From: Shinella sp. CPCC 101442
GTDB taxonomy: Bacteria; Pseudomonadota; Alphaproteobacteria; Rhizobiales; Rhizobiaceae
Direction: 5' to 3'
Assembly (NCBI RefSeq): GCF_024704725.1
Contig: NZ_JALIQS010000002.1
Coordinates: 620,001-684,000 of the forward strand
Length of the DNA stretch: 64,000 nucleotides
Part shown: positions 30,391 to 51,343 of the stretch, one piece after another
Layout of the letters: each line of letters opens with the position of its first letter
Numbering within the stretch: the first letter of the stretch is position 1
Translations under genes and position numbers: made by a program
The notes under the pieces: model-generated
Seen by the model: only the letters and a program-made list of their open reading frames with translations
The model's database searches: none
What the model was told of the DNA's origin: nothing

Positions 30391-30408
30391 TTGCAATACT
30401 TATTGCAA
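30391..30408. promoter_or_regulatory. GCAA-N6-TTGC operator upstream of iolD (site 1)
   Basis: TTGCAATACTTATTGCAA is a perfect 7-4-7 inverted repeat. It sits between the end of the Gfo/Idh gene and iolD, in an AT-rich patch suitable for an internal promoter. It is the best copy of the motif repeated in six other promoter regions of this cluster. Confidence 0.7.
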
Positions 30409-30409
30409 A

Positions 30410-31603
30410 TCACATCGACAGCGTGCAATCCGTCCATTGCCCGCCCGACTGGCTCGATGCGAGCGCCGCCTCGATGAACTTCACACCAAGCGCACCGTCC
30501 ACCACCGTCGGATATTCCAGCAGCCCTGCGGGCAAGGTCCTGCCAAGACGGCGTGCCTCGACGGCAATCGCAAATTCCTCATAGAGATTGCCCCAGGCAT
30601 CGCTCAGCGCCTCCGGGTGGCCACGCGGCATGTGCACGAAGCGCGCCGCATGCACGCCGATGCCAGCGCCTTCGCCGCGCGTCAGCACGCGGGCCGGTTC
30701 GTTGAAGCGACGAAAATGCAGGAGTTCCGGCTCTTCCTGGTTCCATTCCAGGCTTGCCTTGTCACCGAAGACCCGGATGCGCAGCCCGCAATGGGCGCCG
30801 GGCGCGACCTGCGAGATCATGATGGTGCCGGGAATGTCGCCTTCGTAGCGCACATGCATGAAGGCCGTGTCCTCCAGCGCCTTCGGCGGGCCTAGTGTGT
30901 GGAACTCTGCCCGAACCGCCGTGACGGGGCGACCGCAGACGAAGGCGCCGAGATGGTGGCAATGGGTGCCGATGTCGCCAGTGGTGAAGGTGGGACCGAC
31001 GATCGACGGATCGACACGCCATTGCGCGCCGGCACCGGCATCGCTCAGGGGCGTCAGCGCCCATTCCTGAAAATACTCGACATGCACCTGCTGCAGCTTT
31101 CCAAGCACGCCCTCGCGGATCATCGCCCGGGCTTGCCGCACCATGGCGGAGGCGGCATAGGCATAGGTCACGCCGAAGACGAGGCCCGTCTCCTTCTGCC
31201 GGCGCACGAGATCGAGCGCATCGGCAAGCGTCGTCGTCAGCGGCTTGTCGCTGATGACGTCGATGCCCTTTTCCATGAAGGCGCAGGCGATGGCATGGTG
31301 GGAATTGTTCGGCGTGGTGATCGCCACGGCATCGATGCCATCCGGCCGCGCTGCCTCGCGCTCGGCCATCACCCGGTAATCCGTGTAGATGCGGTCCTCG
31401 GCGAGCAGCCAGGCACGCCCGGATTCCAGCGCCACCTGCGGCCGGGACGACAGTGCGCCCGCAACGAGATCCCAGCGATTGGAGAGGCGGGCACCGCGCG
31501 CGTGCACCTTGCCGATAAAACTGCCCTGCCCTCCGCCGACGATGCCGAGCCGCAAACGACGCTCGGCCAGCGGAAATTCTTGGCTGCCTGAAACCTCTGG
31601 CAT
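30410..31603 (-). CDS. Gfo/Idh/MocA-family dehydrogenase (long form)
   Basis: 397 residues. The Rossmann loop is RLGIVGGGQGSFIGKVHARG, the Lys motif SDKPLTTT lies near residue 115, and GDIGTHCHHLGAFVCG is near residue 200. It is a paralogue of the protein at 26191-27366 and of the same long subfamily. The substrate is probably an inositol or a derivative. The ATG at 31603 has GGGAGGGG six bases upstream. It is the first gene of the minus-strand group and is divergent from the iolG-like gene, with operator site 2 between them. Confidence 0.85.
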   Translation of the reverse strand: MPEVSGSQEFPLAERRLRLGIVGGGQGSFIGKVHARGARLSNRWDLVAGALSSRPQVALESGRAWLLAEDRIYTDYRVMAEREAARPDGIDAVAITTPNNSHHAIACAFMEKGIDVISDKPLTTTLADALDLVRRQKETGLVFGVTYAYAASAMVRQARAMIREGVLGKLQQVHVEYFQEWALTPLSDAGAGAQWRVDPSIVGPTFTTGDIGTHCHHLGAFVCGRPVTAVRAEFHTLGPPKALEDTAFMHVRYEGDIPGTIMISQVAPGAHCGLRIRVFGDKASLEWNQEEPELLHFRRFNEPARVLTRGEGAGIGVHAARFVHMPRGHPEALSDAWGNLYEEFAIAVEARRLGRTLPAGLLEYPTVVDGALGVKFIEAALASSQSGGQWTDCTLSM

Positions 31604-31675
31604 GATCCCCTCCCTCAAAATCCACGCTTGCCCGAAAACAGGCTTGCAGAATTAATATTGACGGAATATCAAATG

Positions 31676-31691
31676 CGCAACTTTTTTTGCA
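31676..31691. promoter_or_regulatory. GCAA-N6-TTGC operator between divergent dehydrogenase genes (site 2)
   Basis: GCAA (31677-31680), six bases, TTGC (31687-31690). It lies 21 bp before the iolG-like start and 73 bp from the opposite gene, so it could control both directions. Confidence 0.6.
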
Positions 31692-31711
31692 TCACCATCA
31701 GGAGGAAGTTG

Positions 31712-32713
31712 ATGATCAGGATTGCGTTGCTCGGCTGCGGGCGCATCGGGAAGATGCATGCTGCCACGATTGTGCGTTCAAGCAAAGCTGAACTCGCAGC
31801 CGTGTACGATCCGGTTTCCGCAGCCGCCGACGAAGTCGGTCGCCAGTTCGGATGCCTGGTTGCCGGCAGTGCCGAAGAGGCGATCGCACAGGCCGATGCA
31901 GTGCTGATCGCGACGTCCACGCCGACGCATGCGGACCTCATCGAGGCATCCGCAAAAGCCGGCAAGGCGATCTTCTGCGAAAAGCCCATCGACCTGTCGC
32001 TTGCCCGGGTCAAGGCCTGCCGCGCGGCACTACTGGGCTTCGACAGGCCGATCCAGATCGGCTTCAACCGCCGTTACGATCCGGGCCACCGGGCCGCGCG
32101 CGATGCCGCCCGTTCCGGCGAGATCGGCGAGATCCGCCAGGTGATCATCACGTCGCGCGACCCCGGCCTCGCCTCGCGCGAATACCTCAAGGCATCCGGC
32201 GGCATCTTCAAGGACATGACCATCCACGATTTCGACCTCGCCCGCTTCATGCTGGGCGAAGAGCCCGTCGAAGTCTTCGCCACCGGCAGCGCGCTCATCG
32301 ACCCGACGCTGGCCGAGCTGAACGATATCGACTCCACCATGGTCGTTCTGCGCACGGAAAGCGGCAAGCTCTGCCACATCAACAACTCCCGCGCCGCCAT
32401 CTACGGCCATGACCAGCGCGTCGAGATCCTGGGTTCGAACGGCATGCTCATTTCCGGAAACCGCCGCGCGCATGGTCTCGAACGGTTCGGACCGACCGCG
32501 ACGGGCGCCGGCGAGCCCTTCCTCAATTTCTTCATCGAGCGCTATGCGGAAGCCTATGCGCTGGGGCTGGAATCGTTCATCGACTGCGTCGAAACCAACG
32601 CCACGCCGGATGCCACCTTTGAAGACGGCGAAAAGTCCCTGGCGCTCGCCGAAGCCGCAAATCTCTCGCGCGCCGAGCGGCGGTTCGTCAACATCCGCGA
32701 AATCGTCGGCTGA
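31712..32713 (+). CDS. iolG: Inositol 2-dehydrogenase-like (Gfo/Idh/MocA)
   Basis: 333 residues, the length of rhizobial IolG/IdhA. GCGRIGKMHA begins the Rossmann fold, FCEKPIDLS (about residues 90-98) holds the catalytic Lys, and TSRDPGLASREYLKASGGIFKDMTIHDFDLARF (about 143-175) holds the Asp and His of the catalytic triad. These long blocks match known myo-inositol dehydrogenases best of the five Gfo/Idh proteins here. It makes scyllo-inosose from myo-inositol with NAD+. GGAGGAAG lies before the ATG at 31712. A preference for scyllo- or chiro-inositol cannot be excluded. Confidence 0.8.
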   Translation: MIRIALLGCGRIGKMHAATIVRSSKAELAAVYDPVSAAADEVGRQFGCLVAGSAEEAIAQADAVLIATSTPTHADLIEASAKAGKAIFCEKPIDLSLARVKACRAALLGFDRPIQIGFNRRYDPGHRAARDAARSGEIGEIRQVIITSRDPGLASREYLKASGGIFKDMTIHDFDLARFMLGEEPVEVFATGSALIDPTLAELNDIDSTMVVLRTESGKLCHINNSRAAIYGHDQRVEILGSNGMLISGNRRAHGLERFGPTATGAGEPFLNFFIERYAEAYALGLESFIDCVETNATPDATFEDGEKSLALAEAANLSRAERRFVNIREIVG

Positions 32714-32718
32714 GACCC

Positions 32719-32752
32719 CTGCCCGCCGTGCCCAGACGGGTGTGGCGGGCAT
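32719..32752. terminator. Hairpin between convergent iolG-like and rpiR genes
   Basis: TGCCCGCC (32720-32727) pairs with GGCGGGCA (32744-32751), with an inner helix between. It separates two convergent genes, and its downstream bases are pyrimidine-rich. Confidence 0.5.
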
Positions 32753-32758
32753 TCCTTC

Positions 32759-33856: not shown

Positions 33857-33865
33857 TGTCATTCC

Positions 33866-34813
33866 TCAATAGGGGGCGTCGGGGAAGTAGTATTCCGCCG
33901 CATTGTCCTTGGTGATCAGCGGGCTGCCAAGCACGTAGCGACCGTTGATCGGCGCCTGCGTGGCGAACTTCATGGTGACGAGTTCGATCGCGGGGATGAT
34001 CAGCGTCGGCGGGTAGAAGATGTCGGCATCGACCATGTCGTGGCCGTCCATCACCAGCTTGATCACCTTGTTCATGCCGGAACCGCCCAGCACCGTCACG
34101 TTCTTGCGCTCCGCCTGCTTGATCGCCTCGATGGCGCCGAGTGCGGCATCGTCGTCGCCAGCCCACACACCGTCGATCTCAGGGAACCGCTGGAGATAGT
34201 CCTGCATCACCTCGAAACCCTTGTCCGGGTTCCAGTTGGCGTACTGCATGTCGAGCACTTCGATCTTGGTATCCTTCAGCGCCGCGTTGAAGGCGTCGAT
34301 GCGGATGTTGTCGATCGCCGTCGGGATGCCGCGCATCACGACGATCTTGCCGCCATCGGGAAACTTCTTCTTGAAGTATTCGGCGGCCGCCTTGCCGTAT
34401 TGCGGGTTGTCGCCGCCGACATAGAGGTCTTCGATGCCTTCCTCGGCAAGACCCCGGTCGACGGTCGCGATGAACACACCCTTCGCCTTGGCGGCCTTGA
34501 CCGGCTCGGTCAGCGGGTCGGATTCGAAGGGCAGGACGACGAGCGCATTGATGTTGCGCGCCATCAGGTCCTCGATATCGTTGACCTGCTGTGTGGCGCT
34601 CGACGAGGTCGCCAGCACGAAGTCGATGTTCGGGAAGGCTTCCTTCATCCGGTCGATGGTGCGCTTGGTATGGTAGTTGAGGCCGCCCGTCCAGCCGTGC
34701 GTGGCGGCCGGGATCGAGACGCCGATGACGGCGTCGGCGGCGAGCGCCGGCGTTGCCAGCGCCGCAACGAGGACCGCGCCTGCGGCAAGGATGGATTTCA
34801 GTTTGTGGATCAT
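33866..34813 (-). CDS. ABC importer A substrate-binding protein (sugar/cyclitol, CUT2 type)
   Basis: A 315-residue periplasmic protein with signal peptide 1-25 (cut after TPALA). The mature part has the RbsB-like fold: VIGVSIPAATHGWTGGLNYH at the first ligand loop, VVLPFESDPLTEPVKAAKAKGV, and DDDAALGAIEAIKQ near the hinge. It captures the ligand for permease 34847-35863 and ATPase 35860-37368. Last gene of the minus-strand operon that begins with the ALDH at 40620. AGGGAGA precedes the ATG. The ligand is likely a sugar or inositol related to the nearby enzymes. Confidence 0.88.
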   Translation of the reverse strand: MIHKLKSILAAGAVLVAALATPALAADAVIGVSIPAATHGWTGGLNYHTKRTIDRMKEAFPNIDFVLATSSSATQQVNDIEDLMARNINALVVLPFESDPLTEPVKAAKAKGVFIATVDRGLAEEGIEDLYVGGDNPQYGKAAAEYFKKKFPDGGKIVVMRGIPTAIDNIRIDAFNAALKDTKIEVLDMQYANWNPDKGFEVMQDYLQRFPEIDGVWAGDDDAALGAIEAIKQAERKNVTVLGGSGMNKVIKLVMDGHDMVDADIFYPPTLIIPAIELVTMKFATQAPINGRYVLGSPLITKDNAAEYYFPDAPY

Positions 34814-34846
34814 TCACTTGTCTCCCTGTTGAAGTGAAAAGAAGGG

Positions 34847-35863
34847 TCAGCCCTGCGAGCGGTCGCGTTGCAGGAGGACGGCGATGATGATGATCGCCCC
34901 CTGGAATGCGCCGTTGAGATAGGGGCTGATGAAGCCGGTGAGGTTGAGGATGTTGCTGATGAAGCCGAGGATCAGCACGCCGACGATGGTGCCCCAGATG
35001 CGCCCGAAACCGCCGCTGAGCGCCGTGCCGCCGATGATAACGGCGGCAATCGCCTCCAGTTCCCACATCAGCCCGGTCGAAGGGGTCGCTGCACCAAGGC
35101 GCGGCACGTAAATCACCGTCGCGACGGCGACACAGAGGCCCTGGATGACGTAGGTCAGGATGCGCACGCGGTTGACCGGGATCGCCGAATAGAAGGCGAC
35201 GTGCCGATTCGAGCCGATGGCCGCCACATGCCGGCCGAAGCGCATGCGCCGCAGCACCAGTTCACCGACAATGGCGATGACGCCGAGCACGAGGATCGGC
35301 ACGGCGATACCGAGGACCTGGCCGTAGTAGATCGGGCGCGCGGCATCGCGCAGCGAGAAATCGAGCGAGATCGAGCCGCCATCCGCAAGCCAGGTGATGA
35401 CCGAGCGGAAGATGCCCATGGCGCCGAGCGTTACGATGAAGGCTTCCACCCGCCCCTTGACGATCATGACACCGTTGAGGAGGCCGGCCGCGGCACCGAC
35501 GACAAGAGAGCAGACGATGCCGGCGGCGACGAGTTGCCAACCCGGCCCGAGCACCTCGGCGGCCGAATTCATGAACATGATCGTCACACCTGCGACCAGC
35601 GCCGAGAGCGAGCCGACGGAAAGGTCAAGCCCGCCCGCCGTGATGACGAAGGTCGCGCCGACCGCGATGATGCCGATGATGGCGCTACGCGTGAAAACGT
35701 TCGAGAGGTTTTCCGCGCCGAGAAAGCTGTCGCTCATCAGGGAACCGATGAGCATCAGCAGGATGAGAGCAATCAGCGGGCCGGCAGCCTCGAAAATGCC
35801 CGCAAGGGTGCGGCCCGGCGACGCTGTGGCGTTGCCGGCGGATGTCGCGGTAATGTCGGTCAA
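34847..35863 (-). CDS. ABC importer A permease (CUT2 family)
   Basis: A 338-residue inner-membrane protein with eight to ten helices. It has the BPD_transp_2 core GLDLSVGSLSALVAGVTIMF (the loop touching the ATPase) and AVIIGGTALSGGFGRIWGTIVG, as in RbsC. Its start overlaps the ATPase stop by four bases (ATGA), so the two are coupled. It works as a homodimer with the double ATPase. Confidence 0.9.
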   Translation of the reverse strand: MTDITATSAGNATASPGRTLAGIFEAAGPLIALILLMLIGSLMSDSFLGAENLSNVFTRSAIIGIIAVGATFVITAGGLDLSVGSLSALVAGVTIMFMNSAAEVLGPGWQLVAAGIVCSLVVGAAAGLLNGVMIVKGRVEAFIVTLGAMGIFRSVITWLADGGSISLDFSLRDAARPIYYGQVLGIAVPILVLGVIAIVGELVLRRMRFGRHVAAIGSNRHVAFYSAIPVNRVRILTYVIQGLCVAVATVIYVPRLGAATPSTGLMWELEAIAAVIIGGTALSGGFGRIWGTIVGVLILGFISNILNLTGFISPYLNGAFQGAIIIIAVLLQRDRSQG

Positions 35864-37368
35864 TGGCTTGCCTCCTCCTGCGGGGCCTTGTCTTCCAGGC
35901 CCATGGCAAATCGAATGATGTCGGTCTCGCTGATCGCGTCGCCGGAAAGCTCGCCGGCAATGCGGCCGCGCCGCATGACCAACACGCGATCGGACAGCCC
36001 GACGATCTCCTGCATCTCGGACGAGATGACGACGATCGCCTTGCCCTCTGCGGCGAGCGTGGCGATGATCTCGTAGATCTGCTGCTTGGCGCCGATATCG
36101 ACGCCGCGCGTCGGCTCGTCGAAGACGATCAGGTCGGGCTCGACGGCAAGTGTCTTGGCGATCAGCACCTTCTGCTGGTTGCCGCCGCTGAGCGCGCCGG
36201 CCGTGACGTCGAGGCGGCCGGCGCGGATGTCGTAGCGTCCGACGGCGGCTTCGAGATCACGCCGCTCCGCCCGCCGGTCGATCCACCTCGCGCCGTTGAT
36301 CGCGCCCTTGGTGAGCGCCACGTTCTGGTCGAGCGACTTGCCGAGCAGCAGGCCCTTGCCCTTGCGGTCCTCCGTCAGGTAGGCGAGTTTCAGCCCCCAG
36401 GCCTCACGCGCCGCCGGCAGCTTGCGCGCCTCACCACGCAGCACGAAGGACCCGCATCGCGCCGGCCGCAGCCCGAAGAGCGCTTCGAAAAGTTCCGTGC
36501 GGCCGGAGCCGACGAGCCCGGAAATGCCGAGCACTTCGCCTTCACGAATATCGAGTGTCGCCTCCTCGACGGCGCCCGGCGACGTCAGGCCGGCGACGCT
36601 GAGCAATGCCTTACGGTCCGCCGCACCGCGCCGGGGTGGATAGATTTCCGACAGAGGCCGCCCGACCATCGCCTCGGCCATCGCATCCTCGGAAATATCG
36701 CTGGTGTTCTCGACGCGCACGATCTGGCCGTCGCGCAGGACCGCGACGCGATCGGCGATATCCTTCACCTCCTCAAGGCGATGCGACGTGAAGATCACCG
36801 AACCGCCCGCCTCGCGGAACGCGCGGATACGGGCAAACAGGTTGCCCGCCTCCGTCGCCGACAGCACTGCGGTCGGCTCGTCCATCAGGATGAGCTTCGG
36901 TTGCCGGGCGAAAGCCTTGGCGAGCTCGATCATCTGCCAGTCGGAGACGGGCAAGTCGCGCAGCCGCGTCCGGACGGGAGCGATTGACCCGAGTTCGGCC
37001 AGCAGGTCTCGTGCGCGTGCCTCCATCGCCTTGCGATCGGTGAAGAGGCCGCGTGTGATTTCCCGGCCGAGAAAGACGTTTTCCGCCACCGTCAAATGGG
37101 GCGCCAGGCAGAATTCCTGGTGTACCATGACGATGCCCGCGCGTTCGGCGGCATGCAGCGTTGCCGGCGCCGGCGCGCCGTCCAGCAGCATCGTGCCCGA
37201 AGACGGCGGTGCCAGCCCGGCGGCAATGCGCATGAGGGTCGATTTGCCCGCGCCGTTTTCACCAACGAGCGCCAGCACCTCGCCCGGTTTCACCACGAGA
37301 TCGATGCCCTTCAGCACCGGCACGATGCCATAGGATTTGGCGATGTCGCGAAATACCAGGAGCGCCAT
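35860..37368 (-). CDS. ABC importer A double ATPase (RbsA type)
   Basis: 502 residues with two tandem ATPase domains. The first has Walker A GENGAGKST and Walker B LILMDEPTAVLS. The second has the degenerate Walker A GLVGSGRTE that is normal in this family, a full signature LSGGNQQKVLIAK, and LIVFDEPTRGVD. It powers importer A. It starts two bases after the upstream dehydrogenase gene stops, within one operon. Confidence 0.92.
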   Translation of the reverse strand: MALLVFRDIAKSYGIVPVLKGIDLVVKPGEVLALVGENGAGKSTLMRIAAGLAPPSSGTMLLDGAPAPATLHAAERAGIVMVHQEFCLAPHLTVAENVFLGREITRGLFTDRKAMEARARDLLAELGSIAPVRTRLRDLPVSDWQMIELAKAFARQPKLILMDEPTAVLSATEAGNLFARIRAFREAGGSVIFTSHRLEEVKDIADRVAVLRDGQIVRVENTSDISEDAMAEAMVGRPLSEIYPPRRGAADRKALLSVAGLTSPGAVEEATLDIREGEVLGISGLVGSGRTELFEALFGLRPARCGSFVLRGEARKLPAAREAWGLKLAYLTEDRKGKGLLLGKSLDQNVALTKGAINGARWIDRRAERRDLEAAVGRYDIRAGRLDVTAGALSGGNQQKVLIAKTLAVEPDLIVFDEPTRGVDIGAKQQIYEIIATLAAEGKAIVVISSEMQEIVGLSDRVLVMRRGRIAGELSGDAISETDIIRFAMGLEDKAPQEEASH

Positions 37369-37370
37369 GA

Positions 37371-38357
37371 TCAGCCGCCGACCGGAGAAAGACGCGGAGC
37401 AATCTCGGCGCGGTTGACGACGAGTGCCGGGTCGAGCGTGCCACTGAAGAAATCGAGGATGTTTGCCGCCGCCGAGATGGCCATGCGCCGCGCGCAGGCT
37501 TCGGTGAGCCCGGCATTGTGCGGGGAAAGCACCACCCGGTCGCAGGCGAGCATGGGGTCGTCATGTGCCGGCGGTTCGGCATCGAGCACGTCGAGGCCGG
37601 CCGCGGCAAGCCGCCCCTCATTGAGCGCCGCCAGCAACGCCCCTTCATCGATCAGGCCGCCGCGCGCCGTGTTGACGAGAATGGCCGAACGTTTCATCAC
37701 GGCCAGCTCCGCAGCACCGATCAAAGGCTCGGCGCCGGATTTGGGCACATGCAGCGACACGACGTCGGCGCGCGAAAGGCCATCGAGCAAGTCATCCACA
37801 GGCGTTGCGCCAGCCGCCGCGATCTGGTCCGCGGCCTGGAACTTGTCGTAGGCAAGCACCGTCATGCCGAGCGCCGTCGCGATCTGCGCCAGCCGCCTGC
37901 CGATGCGGCCGAAGCCGACCACCAGCAGCGTGCCCCCATCGAGCTCGTCGGCATCGAGACTGTTCCGGTAATTCCAGTCGCCTTGCCGCATCTTGCGATC
38001 AAAGAGGACGGTGCGGCGCGCGGCCGAGAGCATCAGCATGACGGCGTGCTCGGCCACGGCGCGGGAATTCACATCCCCCACGACGGCAAGCGGGATGCCG
38101 CGGCCGTTCAGGGCTGCAACGTCAACCGAATCGTAGCCGACGCCGTGGCGCGAAACGATCTTGAGATTGGGCGCATCGGCAATGAACGCCGCCGACAGCG
38201 GCTGGGTGCGGATGAGCAGCGCATCGGCGGTCGCGAGGAACGGCGCATAGCTTGCCGCGGAGACCTCCTCGACATAGTCGATCGTCACGCCGGGCGCGGA
38301 GTTAAGAACGGCTAGGCCGTCCGCGTGGATCTTGCCTGCCACCAGGATCCTGGGCAT
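37371..38357 (-). CDS. D-2-hydroxyacid dehydrogenase
   Basis: 328 residues. The NAD loop is VGFGRIGRRLAQIATALGM (about 146-164), and catalytic Arg, Glu and His are in VNTARGGLID, GLDVLDAEP and LSPHNAGLT. The family includes phosphoglycerate dehydrogenase and glyoxylate/hydroxypyruvate reductases. Between an aldolase and an importer it may reduce or oxidise a C2-C3 hydroxyacid from the aldol cleavage. The start is one base after the aldolase gene stop. A strict substrate cannot be named. Confidence 0.82.
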   Translation of the reverse strand: MPRILVAGKIHADGLAVLNSAPGVTIDYVEEVSAASYAPFLATADALLIRTQPLSAAFIADAPNLKIVSRHGVGYDSVDVAALNGRGIPLAVVGDVNSRAVAEHAVMLMLSAARRTVLFDRKMRQGDWNYRNSLDADELDGGTLLVVGFGRIGRRLAQIATALGMTVLAYDKFQAADQIAAAGATPVDDLLDGLSRADVVSLHVPKSGAEPLIGAAELAVMKRSAILVNTARGGLIDEGALLAALNEGRLAAAGLDVLDAEPPAHDDPMLACDRVVLSPHNAGLTEACARRMAISAAANILDFFSGTLDPALVVNRAEIAPRLSPVGG

Positions 38358-41954: not shown

Positions 41955-41990
41955 TTTCTCTGTTCCCTGGATGATGCGCATTTTGTTTAA

Positions 41991-42069: not shown

Positions 42070-42969
42070 ATGAAAGCCAAACTCGGCATTGCCCCCATCG
42101 CCTGGTGGAACGACGACCTGCCGGAAATCAGCAGCGACATTTCGCTGGAAGGATGCCTTGCCGAGGCCGCGCAAGCCGGCTTTACCGGCATGGAGACCGG
42201 CCGCCGGTTCCCGATGGACGCGAAGATCCTGCGCCCCATTCTCGACAAGCACGGCATCCAGGTTTGCGGCGGCTGGTTCTCCGGCCTTCTGCTCGATGGC
42301 GACATCGAGGCGGAGAAGGACCGGATCGCCGAGCAGATGGCGCTGTTCAAGGCGGTCGATGCTCCCTGCATCGTCTACGGCGAGACGGCCGGCACCATCC
42401 AGGGCGACCGCACCGCGCCGCTTGCCACCAAGCGCAAGCTCTCCGAGGACGAGATCAAGGCCTACGGTCGCAAGATGACGGCCTTCGGCGAATGGTGTTC
42501 CGACCAGGGCATGCCGATCTCCTATCACCATCACATGGCGGCGCCGATCGAGACCGAGGAAGAACTCGATCTCCTGATGAAACATTCCGGCGAAGGCTTG
42601 CCGCTGCTCTTCGATGCCGGCCACATGGCCTTTGCCGGCGGCGACGTCCTGCACGTCATCGACAAACATCACAGCCGCATCACCCATGTGCACACCAAGG
42701 ACGTCCGCCTGCCGGTGATCGACGCGCTCGACCGCACGAAGGAGAGCTTCCTCGACGCCGTCATCAAGGGCGCCTTCACAGTGCCCGGCGACGGCAGCCT
42801 CGATTTCGAGGCCATCGTCAAGCGCCTCGCCTCCCACGGCTACGAGGGCTGGTTCGTCGTCGAGGCGGAGCAGGATCCCACCCACAATCCGCCGCTCGAC
42901 ATGGCAAAGATCGGCCATAAGGAACTCCTCCGCGTCATGGCCGCCGCCGGTTACGAGGTGGTTCGTTGA
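42070..42969 (+). CDS. iolE: myo-Inosose-2 dehydratase
   Basis: A 299-residue TIM barrel of exact IolE length. The start AKLGIAPIAWWNDDLPEIS, the block FTGMETGRRFP, CGGWFSGLLLDGD, CIVYGETAGTIQGDR and YHHHMAAPIETEEELDLLM are all IolE hallmarks. Metal ligands are in LFDAGHMAFAGGD and HVHTKDVR. It dehydrates scyllo-inosose to the diketone used by IolD. The ATG at 42070 follows GGAG. It stands alone on this strand and ends at a strong bidirectional terminator. Confidence 0.94.
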   Translation: MKAKLGIAPIAWWNDDLPEISSDISLEGCLAEAAQAGFTGMETGRRFPMDAKILRPILDKHGIQVCGGWFSGLLLDGDIEAEKDRIAEQMALFKAVDAPCIVYGETAGTIQGDRTAPLATKRKLSEDEIKAYGRKMTAFGEWCSDQGMPISYHHHMAAPIETEEELDLLMKHSGEGLPLLFDAGHMAFAGGDVLHVIDKHHSRITHVHTKDVRLPVIDALDRTKESFLDAVIKGAFTVPGDGSLDFEAIVKRLASHGYEGWFVVEAEQDPTHNPPLDMAKIGHKELLRVMAAAGYEVVR

Positions 42970-43007: not shown

Positions 43008-43010
43008 GTT

Positions 43011-43787
43011 TCAGATCGTCCCGCCGAGCGAGGATTCCAGCAGCGCCAGTTCCTGCCCGCCGGCCATCATGTCCTGCAAGGCTGCCGCATCCACCGTGCC
43101 GCGTTCGGCGGTACCGAGCGTCTGGCCGCGGTTCAGCACCGTGAAGCGATCACCGACAGCGAGAGCGTGACGGACGTTGTGGGTGATGAAGACGACGCCG
43201 ATGCCCTGTTTGCGCACCCGATCGATCGTGCTCAGCACGTTCGCCGTCTGGCGCACGCCGAGCGCGGAGGTCGGTTCGTCGAGGATCAGCACCTTGGCGC
43301 CGAAATAGACCGCTCGCGCAATCGCCACCGTCTGGCGCTCGCCGCCGGAGAGCGTGCCGACCGCCTGGTCCGGACCACGCAGGCTGATGCCCATCTTGCG
43401 CATTTCCTTGACGGTGATGTCATCGGCCTTGTCCGTATCGAACGTCTTGAACGGCCAGACGCCACGCTCCGGCTCCCGCCCCATCCAGAAATTGCGGCTG
43501 ACGCTCATCAACGGGATCATCGCAAGGTCCTGATAGACCGTGGCAATGCCCGCCGTCATGGCGTCGCGCGGGCTCTGGAACAGGGTCGCCGTGCCTTCCA
43601 CCAGCACCTCCCCGCCACTCGGCTTGTAGACGCCGGACATGATCTTGATGAAGGTGGATTTTCCCGCACCGTTGTCGCCGAGCAGGCAGTGGCATTCGCC
43701 GGCCTTGACGTCGAAGGAGACACCGGCCAGCGCGATGACATGGCCGAAATGCTTCGTGATGTTTCTCATCTCCACGATGGCGGACAT
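43011..43787 (-). CDS. ABC importer B ATPase (single domain)
   Basis: 258 residues. Walker A is [11 protein letters not shown], the signature [15 protein letters not shown] and Walker [13 protein letters not shown]. It has one ATPase domain, as in the fructose (FrcA) and inositol-type importers of rhizobia, so it acts as a homodimer. Its ATG shares one base with the permease stop (TGATG), so it is coupled. Last gene of the dioxygenase-SBP-permease-ATPase operon. Confidence 0.92.
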
Positions 43788-44908
43788 CAGCGTTCTCCCG
43801 TGATGATGCGGCGGATGTAGGTGTTCATGATGACGGCCGTCAGCAGGATCACGCCGAGGAACACCCGGAAGAGCGAGCTTTCCGCATTGGCAAAGAACAG
43901 GCCCTGCTGCACCACGCCGAAGATGATGGCGCCAAGTGCCGCCCCAATGACGGAGCCATAGCCGCCGGTGAGCAGCGCGCCGCCGATGACCACGCAGATG
44001 ATCGCCTCGAACTCCTTGAGCAGGCCACGGTCGGCCGCCGCCGAGCCGAACTCCATCACCTGGCAGGTGGCGAAGACGACGGCGCAGAAGGCGGAGAACA
44101 TGAACATCAGGATTTTTACGCGATTGACCGGCACGCCGACGTAGCGCGCGGCAAGCGCATCACCGCCCGCTGCAAAAATCCAGTTGCCGAACTTGGTGCG
44201 GGTCAGCAGCCAATGGCCGAAGACGACAAGCACGATCGCCCAGACGACGAGCATGGGAATGCCGTCGATGACCGGCTGCCCGGCGCGATTACCGCGGGTG
44301 AAGGTGGCGATCCAGCCCGCCTCCCCCATCCAGGTGAAGAGCCAGCCTAAAACCTTGCCGCCGAAGACCGGCGCGAGCCAGTCGGTTGCCGCTTTTTCGG
44401 CAACGCCGCCGATGATCGTCTGACGGGTAAAATAGATCGAGCCCCAGATGGTCAGGCCGCGCAGGATATAGAGGAAGGCGAGTGTCACGATGAAGGACGG
44501 CAGGCCGGTGCGGATGACCAGCCAGCCGTTCACGCCGCCAAGCAGGACGCAGAAGACGAAGGTCGCGATGATGGCGAGCCAGAGCGGCACCCCGAGATGG
44601 ACCGACAGAATGGCCATCATGACACCGGAAAAGCCGATCATCGAGCCGGTGGAAAGATCGAACTCGCCGGCAATCATCAGAAGACAGGCGCCCGCCGCGA
44701 TGACCATGAACTGGGCCGAAACCACCGTCCAGTTCATCACGCCCTCGGCGGCGAACATGCCGCTGTCGCCGGCAATTACCGCAAACAGCAGGAAGACCAG
44801 GATGGTGCCGCAGATGCCGCCGAGCTCGGGCCGGATCAGCGCGCGCCTGAGCGGCGAGACGGGTTTGATGCGCTCGTCCTTCAGCGCGTCCGGAATGACG
44901 TCCGTCAT
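43787..44908 (-). CDS. ABC importer B permease (CUT2 family)
   Basis: 373 residues with about ten helices. It has the BPD_transp_2 core [19 protein letters not shown] and [23 protein letters not shown], plus an extra loop (about residues 175-225) that is longer than in RbsC. It forms the channel for importer B. It lies 76 bp after the substrate-binding protein gene, with a strong hairpin between that may reduce its expression relative to the binding protein. Confidence 0.9.
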
Positions 44909-44936
44909 GAATGCATTTCCTCCCTCAGAAGCATTT

Positions 44937-44973
44937 TTTGGCGCGCACGGGCAACGAGCCGGTGCGCGCCAAA
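44937..44973 (-). other. Hairpin between binding-protein and permease genes of importer B
   Basis: TTTGGCGCGCAC (44937-44948) pairs with GTGCGCGCCAAA (44962-44973). In the mRNA it follows the binding-protein stop. Such hairpins often stabilise the upstream part and give more binding protein than permease. Confidence 0.6.
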
Positions 44974-44984
44974 AGTTCGTCAGA

Positions 44985-45929
44985 TCAGCGGTACTGGCCT
45001 GCCAGAGACTCGACGAGCGCGATGTTGTCCTTCGTCACGAAGCCCGGGCCGGTGAAGATGGAGTTCGACGGCGTCACACCGTAGCGGACGAAGTTCGTCA
45101 GCACCTGGATCGGGATCGAGCCCTGCAGGAACGGCTGCTGGTCGATCGCGAAGTTGATCGTGCCGTCCTTGATGGCCGCGGAGATTTCTGCGGAGAGGTC
45201 GAAGGTGCCGAAATACAGGTCGCCATCGAGGCCCATCTCCTTGACCGCCCGGATCGACGGTTCGGCCGAGTTAGGGCCGAGCGTCAGGATCGCACCGGTA
45301 TCGGGATTGGCGGTGAGATAGGCCTTCACCTTGTTCTGCACTTCCGACGGATCGATACCGGAATCGACCATCTGGTTGCCGAGTTCCACGCCGATGCCTT
45401 CGGCAAAGCCGCGGCACCGTTCAACGGAAGCAGGGTTGGTGATGTAGTGGTTGACGCAGAGGAAGCTCTTGATGCCCGCCTCCTTCGCGCGCTTGCCGGC
45501 ACCGAGACCCGCTTCATATTCCGGCTGGCCGACATGCATCAGTGCGCCGAGCTTCTGGCTTTCTTCCACCGTGCCGGAATTGACGGTGACCACCGGAATG
45601 CCCTTGGCAACGGCATCCTTTATCGGTCCTTCCAGCACGTTGAAATCGGCGATCGTGACGATGATGCCGTCGACGCCGGCCGCCGAGCTCTGCTGCACGA
45701 GGCGCGCCATGTCGGCAAGGTCGCCGCTCGGCGGGTTACGATATTCGGTCGTAACGCCCATCTGCTCGTTCGTGACCTTGATCGCGTTCTTGATGACGTT
45801 GAACCAGCTGTCGCTATCCGGGCCATGGCTGATCCAGACGAATTTCTCGCCGTCCGCATTGGCGATACCGGCAAACGCCGTCGTGGCAAGCAGCGCGCCG
45901 AGGGCGAGCGATTGCAGAATTTTCTTCAT
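44985..45929 (-). CDS. ABC importer B substrate-binding protein
   Basis: 314 residues with signal peptide 1-25 (cut after IANA). It is a periplasmic-binding protein type 1 fold: FVWISHGPDSDSWFNVIKNAI at the ligand loop, GVDGIIVTIADFNVLEGPIKDAVAKGIPVVTVNSG, and TLGPNSAEPSIRAVKEMGLDGD. It captures a sugar or cyclitol for permease 43787-44908. The ATG at 45929 has GGGAGGAAA upstream. It follows the dioxygenase gene by 64 bp in one operon. Confidence 0.88.
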   Translation of the reverse strand: MKKILQSLALGALLATTAFAGIANADGEKFVWISHGPDSDSWFNVIKNAIKVTNEQMGVTTEYRNPPSGDLADMARLVQQSSAAGVDGIIVTIADFNVLEGPIKDAVAKGIPVVTVNSGTVEESQKLGALMHVGQPEYEAGLGAGKRAKEAGIKSFLCVNHYITNPASVERCRGFAEGIGVELGNQMVDSGIDPSEVQNKVKAYLTANPDTGAILTLGPNSAEPSIRAVKEMGLDGDLYFGTFDLSAEISAAIKDGTINFAIDQQPFLQGSIPIQVLTNFVRYGVTPSNSIFTGPGFVTKDNIALVESLAGQYR

Positions 45930-45993
45930 GAACGATTTCCTCCCGAAATTGGCTTCCTGTTTCCTCCCCGCCCGAAGCCATTGCGGGTAATTT

Positions 45994-47103
45994 TTAAGCG
46001 GCGCGCTTGGCACCCTGTGCGGAAAGCGCTGCGTCGAGCTGCGCCTCATCCCAACCTTCCACGACGGCCCGGGCAAGCAGCTCCTGCTGGCTTTCCGGTG
46101 CGAGACCGCCAAGCGGCGGGTCGGTGTCGAGATTGGTCGGAAACGGATAACCGTCCGCGGTCGCGGCAATCACCGCCCGCCGTCCTTCAGGCGACAGTGC
46201 CGCCAGATGTGGATAGACGGCGCGGGCCATGGCCGTGCGGTCGAGATTTTCCATGTGGCGGGCGAAGGCGGATGCCGTCTGGATAAGATTGACCATGCGC
46301 ACGACATCCGCCGTCCGGTTCTCACCGGCGGCATGGAACAGCGCCGGGCTGAAGAAGATGGCATCGCCCTTTTCCAGGGGAAGCTGGACGCAATGTTCTT
46401 CGAAATAGGCCTGGAATTCCGGCCGCGTGGCGGCGACATAACCCGGCAGGTAGCGCTGCGAATGCGGCAGCAGCTTCGTCGTTCCGCTCTCGACGGGCAT
46501 GTCGCAATGGGCGACGCCGCCCTGCAGGATGAGGGTCGGGCCGGTGGCGTGGATGTGCGTCGGATATTCCGCCATCTGCTCCGGCTTCATGAAGCCGAGG
46601 TGGTAATCGCGATGTGGCGCCTGCGCCTTGCCGCCGGGGCGCACCTGATTGACCTGCGTGGCGATCTGGTAACCCGGGCCGAGCCAGGCGCGGCAGGCAA
46701 TGTCGATCACCGGATTGGCCATGTAGCGGGCGTAGACGGCGGGATTGCGCAGGCACAGCTTCTGCAGGCTGTTCCAGATACGGTCATTGGCACCGGCCTT
46801 GGCAAAGTGATCACCCGCGGCCGTGCCTGCCGCGCGCTCGTCGGCGATGATCTGGCGAAACACGTCACTGGCCGCATCGATGGCGCCAGGATCGGTGAAA
46901 GCGCGCTTCACCACGAAAACACCCGGCCCCTCGCCGATGACCGAGGCCCATTCCGGGCCGATGGCATCGTTGACGGACGCGCCGTCATAGATCGGGATGT
47001 TCTTCTCGATGGCAATGGCCGTCGGGCACATCGCCTTCGTGGTTTCGGTTTCGACCTCGCGCCGGAACTGCGCAAGATCGATCACCGCTGCAATGTCACT
47101 CAT
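45994..47103 (-). CDS. Phytanoyl-CoA dioxygenase (PhyH)-family enzyme
   Basis: 369 residues. The Fe(II) site is HRD in QAPHRDYHLGF (HxD) with a distal His in FSPALFHAAGENRT, whose Arg would bind 2-oxoglutarate. It belongs to non-heme dioxygenases that hydroxylate or demethylate small molecules with 2-oxoglutarate and O2. First gene of importer B operon, with operator site 6 122 bp upstream. By context it may act on the imported ligand, for example by removing an O-methyl group from a methyl-inositol; this is inference. The ATG at 47103 has GGGAGGAGG upstream. Confidence 0.8.
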   Translation of the reverse strand: MSDIAAVIDLAQFRREVETETTKAMCPTAIAIEKNIPIYDGASVNDAIGPEWASVIGEGPGVFVVKRAFTDPGAIDAASDVFRQIIADERAAGTAAGDHFAKAGANDRIWNSLQKLCLRNPAVYARYMANPVIDIACRAWLGPGYQIATQVNQVRPGGKAQAPHRDYHLGFMKPEQMAEYPTHIHATGPTLILQGGVAHCDMPVESGTTKLLPHSQRYLPGYVAATRPEFQAYFEEHCVQLPLEKGDAIFFSPALFHAAGENRTADVVRMVNLIQTASAFARHMENLDRTAMARAVYPHLAALSPEGRRAVIAATADGYPFPTNLDTDPPLGGLAPESQQELLARAVVEGWDEAQLDAALSAQGAKRAA

Positions 47104-47339: not shown

Positions 47340-47368
47340 GCGGTCAGACAGGGTGAGAGAAGGTGCCG

Positions 47369-48343
47369 CTACTTGCGGATCGCCCAATTCCGGAGCGATT
47401 TGTCACCATAGGCCGCCCCGACGACGATGAGGCCGAGAATGAGGATGAACCATTGCGGCTGAACGCCGGTGACGACCAGGTAGGACTGGATGGAGGACAG
47501 GACGAAGGCGCCCATCAGGGCTCCGATCAGCGAGATCCGCCCGCCAGCCAGCAGGCAACCACCCAGAACACAGGAGGCAATGGCCTGCAACTCCATCAGT
47601 CGCCCCATGGATCCATCGGCAAATCCGAGCTTTCCAGCCTCCAGCGCGCCGGCAAAGGCGGCGAGCATGCCGCAGATGACGAATGCGGATAGCTTGATGC
47701 GATCGACACGCACACCGCGCGAATGCGCGCTGTCCGCCGAGCCACCGACGGCCAGCAGCCGGTTGCCGAATGGCATCGCCTTCAGAACAACGATGAGAAC
47801 CGCAAAGACCGCGATCAACCAGAACAGGGCGGTGTTGAAGCCGAGAAAATCACCGCCACCGAGAAGGGAGTACGTCCAACCATTGCGCTCGGCATAGGGA
47901 ATGGAAAACGAAAAGCCGTCCGTCAACGCGATCGCTATGCCACGAAAGATCATCAATGTGCCAAGGGTGATGATCAGCGAGGGTGTCTTCGTCCTGGTGA
48001 TGAGCCAGCCGTTCACATAACCGATAGCCGCGCCAACGGCGATGGCAGCCAAAGCGGCAAATACGGGATCGATACGGGCGGCAAGCCAGAGATGGGCGAG
48101 CGCACCCATGCCGAAGGTCGAGCCGACCGAAATGTCGATCTCACCGGTCCCGATCACGATGGCGACACCCAGACTCATCAGCCCGAGTGTTGCCGTGACC
48201 TGCATGATCGTGCCGATATTATAGAGGTTGGCCCAACGCCCGTCCGAGGTCGATGCGAAAATGACGATCAGGATGGCGCCGATCAGGAAGATGCCGATTT
48301 CCGTGTGGCGGCGAATGAGGGGCTTTGCTGCGGAGAGCGCCAT
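47369..48343 (-). CDS. ABC importer C permease 2 (CUT2 family)
   Basis: 324 residues with nine to ten helices. Core motifs are GTGEIDISVGSTFGMGALAHLW and ASCVLGGCLLAGGRISLIGALMG. Its ATG shares one base with the ATPase stop (TGATG). Together with the second permease at 49131 it would make a heterodimeric channel, as in autoinducer-2/rhamnose-type importers, unlike importers A and B with one permease each. Confidence 0.9.
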   Translation of the reverse strand: MALSAAKPLIRRHTEIGIFLIGAILIVIFASTSDGRWANLYNIGTIMQVTATLGLMSLGVAIVIGTGEIDISVGSTFGMGALAHLWLAARIDPVFAALAAIAVGAAIGYVNGWLITRTKTPSLIITLGTLMIFRGIAIALTDGFSFSIPYAERNGWTYSLLGGGDFLGFNTALFWLIAVFAVLIVVLKAMPFGNRLLAVGGSADSAHSRGVRVDRIKLSAFVICGMLAAFAGALEAGKLGFADGSMGRLMELQAIASCVLGGCLLAGGRISLIGALMGAFVLSSIQSYLVVTGVQPQWFILILGLIVVGAAYGDKSLRNWAIRK

Positions 48344-49113
48344 CAGACCGCCTCCTTCTCGACGACCCGACCGCCCTGGCGGATGACGTCTTCAAGCGCT
48401 TCCGCCGACATGCTGTCCGTCGACGCATCGGCAACCTTCTCACCGTTTTCCATGATGACGATGCGATCGGCGAGCTTGTGTACCTGGAAGATGTCATGCG
48501 TGATGTAGATGACGAGCAGGCCCTGCTCCTTCAGCTGCACCGCCAGTTCGTTGACATGCTCGCGTTCGCGCACCGACAGGTGGTTGGTCGGCTCATCCAT
48601 GATGACGACGCGGTTCTTGAACTCAACGGCCCGGCCGATCTTGACCGATTGGCGCTCACCGCCCGACAGCCGCTCCACCTCGTCATCGGCCGAGACGTTC
48701 TCGCGAAGACCGAACTGGCGGATGACACGGCTGGATTTCTCACGCATCTTGGCGAAATCGAGAAACGGTATACCGAAGATGCGTTTGACCGGCTCCCGGC
48801 CGAGATAAAAGTTGCGTGCGATCGACAGGTTGTCGCACAGGCCGACGGACTGCTGGATGGTCTCGATGCCCTGGTCGATGGCGAGCTTCGGGTGAAACTT
48901 CTCGACCTTCTTGCCGTCGAAGAAGACCTCGCCTTTCGACGGGGCGTGGATGCCGCACAGAACACGGATCAGCGTGGTCTTGCCGGCACCATTGTCGCCG
49001 ACCAGACCGATCAGTTCGCCAGCATTGAAATCGACCGAAACGTTCTTCAGAGCGTGAAAGGCACCGAAATAGAGGTCGAGGTTTTTCACCTGGATCAGGG
49101 GTTGTTGGGTCAT
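48343..49113 (-). CDS. ABC importer C ATPase (single domain)
   Basis: 256 residues. Walker A is GDNGAGKTTLI, the signature LSGGERQSVKIGRAV and Walker B VVIMDEPTNHLS. It is a single domain, so a homodimer with two permeases. The ATG at 49113 has GGGAGGA seven bases upstream and starts 17 bp after the permease 1 stop. Confidence 0.92.
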   Translation of the reverse strand: MTQQPLIQVKNLDLYFGAFHALKNVSVDFNAGELIGLVGDNGAGKTTLIRVLCGIHAPSKGEVFFDGKKVEKFHPKLAIDQGIETIQQSVGLCDNLSIARNFYLGREPVKRIFGIPFLDFAKMREKSSRVIRQFGLRENVSADDEVERLSGGERQSVKIGRAVEFKNRVVIMDEPTNHLSVREREHVNELAVQLKEQGLLVIYITHDIFQVHKLADRIVIMENGEKVADASTDSMSAEALEDVIRQGGRVVEKEAV

Positions 49114-49130
49114 TTGAGCGTCCTCCCGCG

Positions 49131-50087
49131 TCAAACGCTGTGCCCGAGAAAGCGGGCAAGCTTCTGATTGAAAATAACCGCCACGATGAGAACGGCGCCG
49201 ACGAATGTGATGTACCAGGACGATGGTGCGCCGAGCGCGATCAGCTCGTAGCGGAAGCTGACGACGACCAAGGCGCCGAGGATGACCCCGAGGATCGACC
49301 CTCGCCCGCCGGTCAGCAGGCACCCGCCGATCACCGCCGCCGAGATGGCTTCAAGCTCCATGTTCTCGCCGAGCGTCACATGGGTCTGCGGCTGGTTGCA
49401 CAGCGTCAGGATGCCGGCGAAGCCTGCGAGCAAAGAGCAGAGGACGAAGGCCGCCGTCTTGACGCGGTCGGTGCGAACGCCACGCGATTCAGCGCTTTCC
49501 CGACTGCCGCCGGTCGCCAAAAGACGGTTTCCGAAACGGGTGCCCCAGAGCATGATTGCCAGCAGGACGGAAATGATACCGACCCAATAGATGGCCGCGG
49601 AAATTCCGAAAAGCTCGCCGCCCAGGACGCGGGTCAGGGCGTGGGTGCGGGCATCCGGGGAGAAATTATGAACGGATCCACCCGTCCAGACGTAGATGAT
49701 GCCGCGCGCCGCAAACAGGCCGCCAAGCGTGACGATCATCGATGGAAGCTCGCCTTTCACGACGGCGGTTCCCTGGATAAAGCCGGCCGCCGCCGCGATG
49801 AGCAGAGCCACGACCAGAGAGCCGGGCACGCCGAGAGAGGGCTCCAGCGTTATGAAGGCCACGCCGGTCAGCCCGTAGATCGACCCGACGGACAGATCGA
49901 TCTCCTTCGTCATAATCACGAGGGCCTGACCCAACGCCACCAGGGCGAGGATGGCTGTGAACTGCGTGACGTTGGACAGGGTCTGTACCGTCCACCATCC
50001 GGAAAAATCGATTACGGTGAAAACGGCCAGCATGGCGATGACGCCGACGGTCGCGCCAAAACCCTGGCTGCGGACAAGGTATTGCAT
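49131..50087 (-). CDS. ABC importer C permease 1 (CUT2 family)
   Basis: 318 residues with about ten helices. Core motifs are TKEIDLSVGSIYGLTGVAFITL and AAVIGGCLLTGGRGSILGVILG. It is paralogous to permease 2 at 47369. The ATG at 50087 follows AGGACCAAGA; longer in-frame starts would run into the binding-protein gene. A hairpin at 50133 separates it from that gene. Confidence 0.9.
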   Translation of the reverse strand: MQYLVRSQGFGATVGVIAMLAVFTVIDFSGWWTVQTLSNVTQFTAILALVALGQALVIMTKEIDLSVGSIYGLTGVAFITLEPSLGVPGSLVVALLIAAAAGFIQGTAVVKGELPSMIVTLGGLFAARGIIYVWTGGSVHNFSPDARTHALTRVLGGELFGISAAIYWVGIISVLLAIMLWGTRFGNRLLATGGSRESAESRGVRTDRVKTAAFVLCSLLAGFAGILTLCNQPQTHVTLGENMELEAISAAVIGGCLLTGGRGSILGVILGALVVVSFRYELIALGAPSSWYITFVGAVLIVAVIFNQKLARFLGHSV

Positions 50088-50132
50088 GGTTCTTGGTCCT
50101 GCTCGTTGATATGCGCCGCGGGATGCGCAAAG

Positions 50133-50168
50133 GAGGGCAGCCAGCCTGTCGAAAGGCCAGCCGCCCTC
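50133..50168 (-). other. Hairpin between binding-protein and permease genes of importer C
   Basis: GAGGGCAGCCAGCCT (from 50133) pairs with AGGCCAGCCGCCCTC (to 50168) apart from one mismatched pair, giving a long stem in the mRNA just past the binding-protein stop. It may tune expression as the similar element in operon B does. Confidence 0.6.
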
Positions 50169-50185
50169 GCCCGGGAGGGTACCGG

Positions 50186-51214
50186 TTACCAGGTGTTCTG
50201 TTCGTCGTAGGCCTTGTCGCCGAACACGCCGCGGACCTGCGTGGCCCACTGATCCGCATTATCCTTGTTGATCACGAGCGGGCCCGTGAGGATGCTCTGC
50301 TGGGGCGCGTATCCGAACTTCTTGTTCCAATACAGCCACTCCATGGGCGCGTAGCCCTGCAGCCAGAAACCCTGGCTGTTCGTCGCGAGAATATGCCCCG
50401 CGCGCACGCCTTCGATCGATACCGGGCCTTCATCGACGGTCAGGACGGTGACGCCCTTGTCGTCGACGTCGGGATCGAGCTTCATCTCGTTCGCCACACC
50501 CCAGGCCCAAGGGGACGACCAGCCGGCGACCGTGAAGATATAGTTGGTGTCCGGATTGGCCTGCAGGAACGACTGCAGCGTGTTGCGCGCCGTTGCCGGC
50601 TCCGCGCCGATGAAGAGTTCGTCGAACTTGGCGCCCGCCTTCTCCATCACTTCTTTCATGCCGGCGCAGCGGGCCTTGAGGCCCTGATGCGCCGAGTCAT
50701 GGCTTGCGCAGACCACATGTGTCGGCTTCGGGATTTCGCCGGCCTCGACCTTCGTCAGCGCATATTCCCCGAGCTTCTTGCCCGTCAGGAACTCGTCGCC
50801 GCCGACATAGGTGAGATAGGGAATGCGCTCGCCATCCGGACGGCCGTCCGGGATGTTGAAGGCGACGACCGGGATGCCCGCCTCGATTGCCTTGCGCAGC
50901 GGGCCTTCGAAGGCGTCGGAACTGACGATCGGTACGGCAATGCCGTCCGGCTGCGTCGCGATCGCCTGTTCGAGCAGGCGTACATGCTCCTGAACGGAGT
51001 AGTTGTTCGTGGAAATATATTCGGTCTTCACGTCCGGATATTTTGCTTCGAACTCCTTCAGGGACGTCGTCAGCCAGTTCATGTTCGGGTCGTTGGAGCC
51101 GATATGCGACACCATGACGAAACGATACTGCTTTTCGGCATCCTGCGCATGGGCGACCCCAAGTGCGGCAGACGCCAAAAGCGCGGAATACAGGATGCTT
51201 TTTCCAATGTTCAT
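50186..51214 (-). CDS. ABC importer C substrate-binding protein
   Basis: 342 residues with signal peptide 1-23 (cut after AHA). It is a periplasmic-binding type 1 fold: FVMVSHIGSNDPNMNWLTTSL at the ligand loop, and VVAFNIPDGRPDGERIPYLTYVGGDE and TVAGWSSPWAWGVANEM near the hinge. It is longer than the other two binding proteins and shares little beyond the fold, so it probably has a different ligand. First gene of its operon. GGAGGAGGAA precedes the ATG, and operator site 7 lies 114 bp upstream. Confidence 0.88.
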   Translation of the reverse strand: MNIGKSILYSALLASAALGVAHAQDAEKQYRFVMVSHIGSNDPNMNWLTTSLKEFEAKYPDVKTEYISTNNYSVQEHVRLLEQAIATQPDGIAVPIVSSDAFEGPLRKAIEAGIPVVAFNIPDGRPDGERIPYLTYVGGDEFLTGKKLGEYALTKVEAGEIPKPTHVVCASHDSAHQGLKARCAGMKEVMEKAGAKFDELFIGAEPATARNTLQSFLQANPDTNYIFTVAGWSSPWAWGVANEMKLDPDVDDKGVTVLTVDEGPVSIEGVRAGHILATNSQGFWLQGYAPMEWLYWNKKFGYAPQQSILTGPLVINKDNADQWATQVRGVFGDKAYDEQNTW

Positions 51215-51327
51215 AAGGTTCCTCCTCCTTGACTGGAAACAAACGGAGTTTTCGATGCGAGCGGATTGCTCAGTCGTTTTCAGACGGCATCACAGGCAAC
51301 CTCCACGCTGCCTGCCGAACTCCTCGA

Positions 51328-51343
51328 TGCAACATTTATTGCA
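51328..51343. promoter_or_regulatory. GCAA-N6-TTGC operator upstream of importer C (site 7)
   Basis: TGCAACATTTATTGCA, with GCAA at 51329-51332 and TTGC at 51339-51342. Confidence 0.65.

Follow-up and report, generated by a model that had tools for sequence, protein, structure and literature searches.

A putative second inositol regulon under an RpiR-type regulator in Shinella sp. CPCC 101442

The 64,000-nucleotide stretch of DNA from Shinella sp. CPCC 101442 analysed here (the window) carries seven copies of the palindrome GCAA-N6-TTGC near inositol genes and sugar importers. These are very likely the operators of RpiR-2, a regulator encoded at 32759-33670 that falls in a clade distinct from canonical alphaproteobacterial IolR. 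Its half-site would have the third base changed, from TGGAA to TGCAA, around a more A/T-rich centre, and each palindrome would most likely be bound by a dimer. According to this proposal, RpiR-2 represses iolD, iolG, iolE, the operon of aldehyde dehydrogenase (ALDH), aldolase, dehydrogenase and importer A, and importers B and C; repression would end once the SIS domain of the protein has bound an intermediate derived from inositol. With the altered base, RpiR-2 would stay off the GGAA-N6-TTCC sites of canonical IolR, giving two separate inositol regulons in one cell.

Seven palindromes with an A/T-rich centre

An earlier note on this DNA had claimed seven copies of the motif, each in the gap ahead of a named unit. 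All seven are found as an exact 14-bp word, with starts within one or two bases of those it quoted, and each does lie ahead of its unit. Every predicted operator below combines the exact word with a score from a matrix built on 70 non-Shinella RpiR-2 loci.

30393..30406, predicted operator 1, 76 bp before iolD, 29.6 bits
31677..31690, predicted operator 2, between the divergent Gfo/Idh gene (30410-31603) and iolG, 19.9 bits
40685..40698, predicted operator 3, 65 bp before the ALDH operon, 21.6 bits
40801..40814, predicted operator 4, 181 bp before the ALDH operon, 23.3 bits
41992..42005, predicted operator 5, between the divergent Gfo/Idh gene (40833-41957) and iolE, 31.0 bits
47226..47239, predicted operator 6, 123 bp before the dioxygenase and importer B operon, 24.4 bits
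51329..51342, predicted operator 7, 115 bp before importer C, 24.7 bits
32759..33670, minus strand, RpiR-2, the proposed regulator, 303 aa, PF01418 (RpiR-type helix-turn-helix, HTH) and PF01380 (SIS) over cut-off

The site at 31677 falls inside iolG only because the simple gene caller chose an upstream start; with the ATG at 31712 as the start codon, it ends 21 bp upstream.

The word alone marks nothing, since it stands at genome background: 131 places in the 6.1-Mb genome, as against 120 for a reversed control pattern, and as a regulon marker it was rejected. The window itself holds 10 exact copies rather than seven, a number reached by none of 100 shuffles, and the computed chance expectation is 1.6, higher than the earlier estimate of fewer than about one in 64 kb. 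The extra copies, at 782, 26052 and 58618, reach only 8.4, 12.0 and 8.2 bits, compared with 19.9-31.0 for the seven. What sets the seven apart is their N6 core, which is 88% A/T. Degenerate patterns, used as an approximation to a whole-genome matrix scan, bear this out: GCAAYWHTHWTTGC, fitted to the seven sites, occurs at 8 places in the genome, 7 of these in the window, and the looser GCAAHDHDHDTTGC, likewise derived from them, at 17 places, 7 in the window, versus 10 for its control. The many equally good copies that the earlier note had named as a possible refutation therefore exist for the bare word and not for the word with its A/T-rich centre.

The matrix is out of sample, the window and ten Shinella-like loci having been left out of it, and places the seven sites at the top of the window, with the next match at 12.0 bits and the best in the reversed window at 9.5. 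The seven also score highest among the 17 GCAAHDHDHDTTGC places, the other 10 reaching at most 16.7 bits (the best being 16.7 within a gene, and 16.6 and 15.7, both intergenic). The specific signal is the word plus an A/T-rich centre. One copy elsewhere, at C5:289168 (L071:9169), is intergenic, shares all 14 bp with the iolG site, scores 16.6 bits and lies 95 bp before a large gene; it is a possible extra target.

The RpiR-2 clade and its palindrome

RpiR-2 has the composition of the RpiR/MurR family, an N-terminal HTH followed by a C-terminal SIS domain, and its fold matches the structures of RccR and NanR (predicted model with mean predicted local distance difference test, pLDDT, of 80 and predicted template modelling score, pTM, of 0.59). 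Among the matches listed from 397 genomes of the order, three identity groups are apparent, of 61-69%, 49-54% and 31-39%; the first two are taken as RpiR-2, and the third includes canonical IolR. The closest named relatives are from Shinella (90-99% identity). A tree of 65 proteins unites the 22 RpiR-2 proteins in a single clade with support 1.0, apart from canonical alphaproteobacterial IolR; the other IolR-like proteins, canonical ones included, form no clade that excludes RpiR-2.

The palindrome recurs at the loci of these relatives. A scan of all 4-mer palindromes with spacers of 2-12, restricted to intergenic DNA with genes called by a simple script, ranked GCAA-N6-TTGC first of 2,816 palindrome-spacer combinations in 21 RpiR-2 loci, the window excluded (40 seen, 2.5 expected). 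It was also first in 16 gammaproteobacterial loci (45 versus 2.2) and in the 70 non-Shinella loci (138 versus 8.8), although two of the three locus sets overlap. The named set, the best 80 of 245 loci, spans alpha-, beta- and gammaproteobacteria and one acidobacterial metagenome-assembled genome; 66 of the 80 have an exact intergenic copy, or 62 of 75 once five duplicated loci are removed. Of 96 relatives that could be tested, 51 have a site ahead of their own RpiR gene. A second enriched palindrome, ACCA-N12-TGGT, mostly reflects the start of the iolD coding sequence and was set aside as an artefact of the start margin. DNA looping by paired sites was likewise rejected: spacings below 260 bp run from 12 to 252 bp with no clear phasing, and form clusters common to related genomes.

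The presence of the motif depends on the RpiR-2 gene. Orthologues of the window-type iolD (at least 64% identity) are found in genomes with and without RpiR-2, and all 13 RpiR-2-free genomes with this iolD were taken. An exact site lies within 350 bp upstream of iolD at 64 of the 84 RpiR-2 loci that could be tested and at none of the 13 lacking RpiR-2 (Fisher P 1.2e-7, only a guide because the genomes are related). Three draft genomes have iolD and RpiR-2 on different contigs, and in all three the site still stands before iolD. The 13 RpiR-2-free loci (L219-L231) show no GCAA site before iolD and no comparable enriched palindrome; their two intergenic GCAA copies elsewhere are at about chance level.

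Contrast with canonical IolR

A canonical iol locus, with IolR (C2:448891-449679), iolC, iolD, iolE and iolB, lies about 200 kb away in the same genome. This genome and ten loci picked from a longer match list, all from genomes that also carry RpiR-2, make up the canonical set; 27 further IolR-like loci were picked from a longer match list, and 22 of these encode Gln at residue 64. The 11 canonical loci contain no intergenic GCAA site and seven GGAA-N6-TTCC sites, and the 22 further Gln64 loci none and 12, respectively. The 22 RpiR-2 loci, in contrast, have 47 intergenic GCAA sites and a single GGAA site, and so lack the canonical site form. GGAA-N6-TTCC is the IolR motif published for Caulobacter crescentus and relatives (PMC2597717); as the earlier note had stated, the two motifs share a 4-6-4 layout with one base changed per half. 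The assignment of the window motif to the RpiR protein at 32759-33670, also proposed earlier, draws support from the scan of orthologous loci, the iolD comparison, the split contigs and this GGAA contrast.

One competing explanation is that canonical IolR, or another unlinked regulator, also controls the seven sites. IolR belongs to the same family, uses the same layout and sits with canonical iol genes in the same genome; yet loci of its Gln64 type have GGAA in place of GCAA (no intergenic GCAA in 33 loci), and the site is gone before iolD in the 13 RpiR-2-free genomes, at least 10 of which have an RpiR match of the 31-39% group. Such control is accordingly improbable.

The LacI-family protein encoded at 51728-52753 (minus strand) could instead bind the palindromes, given that its gene adjoins site 7 and encodes both a LacI HTH and a sugar-binding domain. 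The flanks of the 101 RpiR-2 loci, a total that counts five named loci twice (they are also in the G set; duplicates were removed from the iolD comparison), contain no LacI relative of at least 40% identity. These flanks reach only about 10 kb, and the window LacI gene is 18 kb from the RpiR gene; relatives were therefore searched genome-wide in 40 carrier genomes (19 from named loci, six of them Shinella, and 21 G genomes). Identity was at least 70% in five, 43-46% in four, and at most 38%, or no relative, in 31, so that a relative of at least 43% is found in only nine of 40 and is not conserved with the motif. Three Shinella genomes whose best match is 30-34% (L132, L133 and L137) nevertheless have 4, 4 and 3 intergenic sites. 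The palindromes near the LacI gene included no clear LacI-type operator. Binding by the LacI protein is thus very improbable. That chance or base composition accounts for the seven sites, as the background frequency of the bare word could suggest, is scarcely credible in view of the out-of-sample matrix, the enrichment at loci of other classes and the presence/absence result before iolD.

Candidate specificity residues

At residue 64, the RpiR-2 proteins of both sets (22 of 22 and 80 of 80) have His and all 11 canonical IolR proteins have Gln; the 27 other IolR-like proteins have Gln (22), Pro (4) or Asn (1). At residue 81, Lys is found throughout the first RpiR-2 set (22 of 22) and in 79 of 80 proteins of the second, the exception being Arg; the canonical and other IolR-like proteins have Ser, Thr or Asn there. 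Consistent differences exist at further positions too, and these two residues are therefore candidates rather than the sole determinants. In the predicted model, residue 64 immediately precedes the recognition helix, and residue 81 opens the helix that follows. A profile alignment places them at Ser50 and Arg67 of Streptococcus pneumoniae NanR. In the 18-bp site of that protein, Ser50 is described as a backbone contact at position 4 and Arg67 as inserted into the minor groove at the centre (PMC12713135). When positions are counted from the centre, GCAA and GGAA differ at position 4. The four central bases are 84% A/T in 133 RpiR-2 sites versus 63% in 19 IolR sites (P 0.002); when the whole six-base spacer is counted, the values are 77% and 68%, which do not differ significantly (P 0.10). 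This would fit, without proving, that His64 selects C and Lys81 favours the A/T-rich centre. Pro64 proteins stand beside another palindrome, TGAAA-N6-TTTCA (L114:6058, 7305 and 7334; L115:7720), which has a further base at the same half-site place. It is present at only two of the four Pro64 loci (L114 and L115), and NanR, with Ser, has yet another half-site; a residue-to-base code is for these reasons only a lead.

Points that weigh against the proposal

Several results weigh against RpiR-2 as the regulator of all seven sites. Beyond the background frequency of the bare word and the relatedness of the genomes behind the P value, 20 of the 84 testable RpiR-2 loci have no exact site before iolD, and exact intergenic copies are missing from 14 of the 80 named loci; among these 14, several have one-mismatch forms before iolD, iolC or ALDH, and some nothing convincing. 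The matrix scan finds no good site upstream of the RpiR gene in the window (best 2.3 bits). Of the 220 site-target assignments made for other loci, transporter genes account for only 10. The single regulon proposed earlier for all units is supported, though less well for the transporters; control of operons B and C is the weaker part of the prediction, indicated mainly by their window scores of 24.4 and 24.7 bits. The NanR paper describes indirect readout and predicts that pyrimidines at position 4 would clash with Arg56 (PMC12713135), which does not simply fit a C at that position. Finally, the case as a whole is built by computation, which shows that the motif is enriched, that it goes with the RpiR-2 gene and that the paralogue loci differ; binding, repression, the effector, the insulation of the two regulons and the roles of His64 and Lys81 are predictions.

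Gene content of the window

The remaining genes of the predicted regulon and its surroundings are as follows.

25325..28430, minus strand, short-chain dehydrogenase/reductase (SDR), Gfo/Idh and xylose-isomerase-like genes downstream of iolD, from Pfam; presumed operon members from their shared strand
28476..30317, minus strand, iolD, TIGR04377 over cut-off
30410..31603, minus strand, Gfo/Idh-type dehydrogenase divergent from iolG, NCBIfam matches below cut-off
31712..32713, plus strand, iolG, TIGR04380 over cut-off
33866..37368, minus strand, importer A (ATP-binding protein, permease, binding protein), NCBIfam matches to sugar ATP-binding cassette (ABC) families below cut-offs
37371..38357, minus strand, D-2-hydroxyacid dehydrogenase, PF02826 and PF00389
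38358..39173, minus strand, HpcH/HpaI-type aldolase, PF03328
39184..40620, minus strand, aldehyde dehydrogenase resembling succinate-semialdehyde dehydrogenase (SSADH), PF00171; TIGR01780 below cut-off
40833..41957, minus strand, Gfo/Idh-type dehydrogenase, Pfam
42070..42969, plus strand, iolE, TIGR04379 over cut-off
43011..47103, minus strand, PhyH-type dioxygenase and importer B (binding protein, permease, ATP-binding protein), Pfam
47369..51214, minus strand, importer C (binding protein, two permeases, ATP-binding protein), Pfam
51728..52753, minus strand, LacI-family gene beside importer C, LacI HTH and sugar-binding domains

The importer A genes lie downstream of the ALDH genes on the same strand. 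Two binding proteins of the window, that of importer B among them, resemble the rhizopine substrate-binding protein family NF052284, both scoring below its cut-off. The PhyH-type dioxygenase under site 6 (45994-47103, minus strand), which is accompanied by the rhizopine-like binding protein, might act on a methylated inositol; of the 74 RpiR-2 loci that span 15 kb or more, five have it. A third RpiR-type HTH (PF01418) occurs at 55088-55951 (plus strand) in an open reading frame (ORF) of 135 aa, adjoining a Gfo/Idh and a xylose-isomerase-like gene; no SIS domain was found in the ORFs that follow, and it resembles an RpiR gene that has been truncated or split. A gene with NERD and UvrD-helicase domains lies at 57839-59854 (minus strand).

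A possible kinase-free route

With identity thresholds of the authors' choice, the 101 RpiR-2 loci contain iolD (88), iolE (75), iolG (62), ALDH (66), the HpaI-type aldolase (65) and the 2-hydroxyacid dehydrogenase (69), with iolC at only eight and iolB at none; after removal of duplicates, 96 loci remain, 84 with iolD, seven with iolC and 58 with all three module genes (ALDH, aldolase and dehydrogenase). None of the eight iolC loci has any module gene. Those without iolC have all three in 61 cases and one or two in 10, and 22 loci, some of them short contigs, have neither a module gene nor iolC. The window cluster likewise lacks iolB and iolC, whose canonical copies lie elsewhere in the genome.

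Genome-wide, 41 carriers (20 of the 80 named loci and 21 G genomes) were searched. Nine have no iolB and no iolC match over cut-off, and 10 have no iolC, while weaker matches to the IolC kinase family occur in all 41. Five of the nine have all three module genes linked, one has the aldolase only, and three have no module gene within the flanks. In a sample of 117 genomes from one genus, which we take to be Bradyrhizobium, RpiR-2 is found in eight and iolB in two, both among the eight, which suggests sporadic transfer. PMC2597717 left unexplained how inositol could be used by Bradyrhizobium japonicum, in which IolR and several iol genes are missing; two other Bradyrhizobium species (L153 and L197) have RpiR-2 clusters and no iolB or iolC above cut-off.

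It is possible, if tentative, that RpiR-2 governs a complete kinase-free inositol pathway that replaces IolB, IolC and the phosphate-dependent aldolase. Judging from the enzyme families, IolG, IolE and IolD would lead to 5-deoxyglucuronate, which ALDH would convert to 5-deoxyglucarate; the 2-hydroxyacid dehydrogenase would then form a 2-oxo acid, to be cleaved by the HpaI-type aldolase into malonate semialdehyde and hydroxypyruvate. In such a pathway the effector would have to be an unphosphorylated intermediate, and His64 in place of Gln64, reading C for G, would keep RpiR-2 apart from the phosphorylating pathway of the same cell. The effector in the model for Sinorhizobium meliloti IolR, as told in PMC8877191, is 2-deoxy-5-keto-D-gluconate 6-phosphate (DKGP); in genomes without iolC, the RpiR-2 effector cannot be DKGP made by IolC. 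The only match for 5-deoxyglucarate in the open-licence PubMed Central (PMC) literature, so far as that source extends, concerned Salmonella IolR, which does not establish its absence from print.

Significance and comparison with known systems

The genes described here very probably form an RpiR regulon for inositol use whose operator is altered, in a cell that also has a canonical IolR regulon; more novel is the pathway lacking iolB and iolC that RpiR-2 appears to control. A search for GCAA-N6-TTGC in the open-licence PMC literature gave no match, which does not by itself establish absence from print. Two inositol gene sets could be switched separately within one cell, and the two proteins form a natural pair of RpiR regulators with predicted sites that are distinguished by a single base pair in each half. 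Since their DNA-binding domains differ by a few fixed residues, the little-known DNA code of the family could become testable by single substitutions.

Among characterized relatives, RccR and HexR of Pseudomonas are also RpiR proteins with palindromic sites, of TGT-type half-sites; RccR differs in its half-site (TGTAGT), its spacers, its ligand 2-keto-3-deoxy-6-phosphogluconate (KDPG) and its central carbon targets (PMC5489143), and has Ser where RpiR-2 has His64. NanR shares the fold family and binds an 18-bp near-palindrome, but it is described as an activator and has another half-site (PMC12713135). IolR of Caulobacter crescentus is a repressor with the same HTH and SIS domains and a 4-6-4 palindrome ahead of inositol genes and sugar importers, as in the window (PMC2597717). 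Canonical IolR differs from RpiR-2 in its half-site (TGGAA against TGCAA), in its residues (Gln64 and Ser or Thr81 against His64 and Lys81), in its clade, and in its place beside iolC and iolB, whereas RpiR-2 loci have no iolB and mostly no iolC. The window cluster shares iolG, iolE and iolD with the canonical iol pathway, all over NCBIfam cut-offs, and differs from it in having, in the predicted regulon, ALDH, an HpaI-type aldolase and a 2-hydroxyacid dehydrogenase and neither iolB nor iolC.

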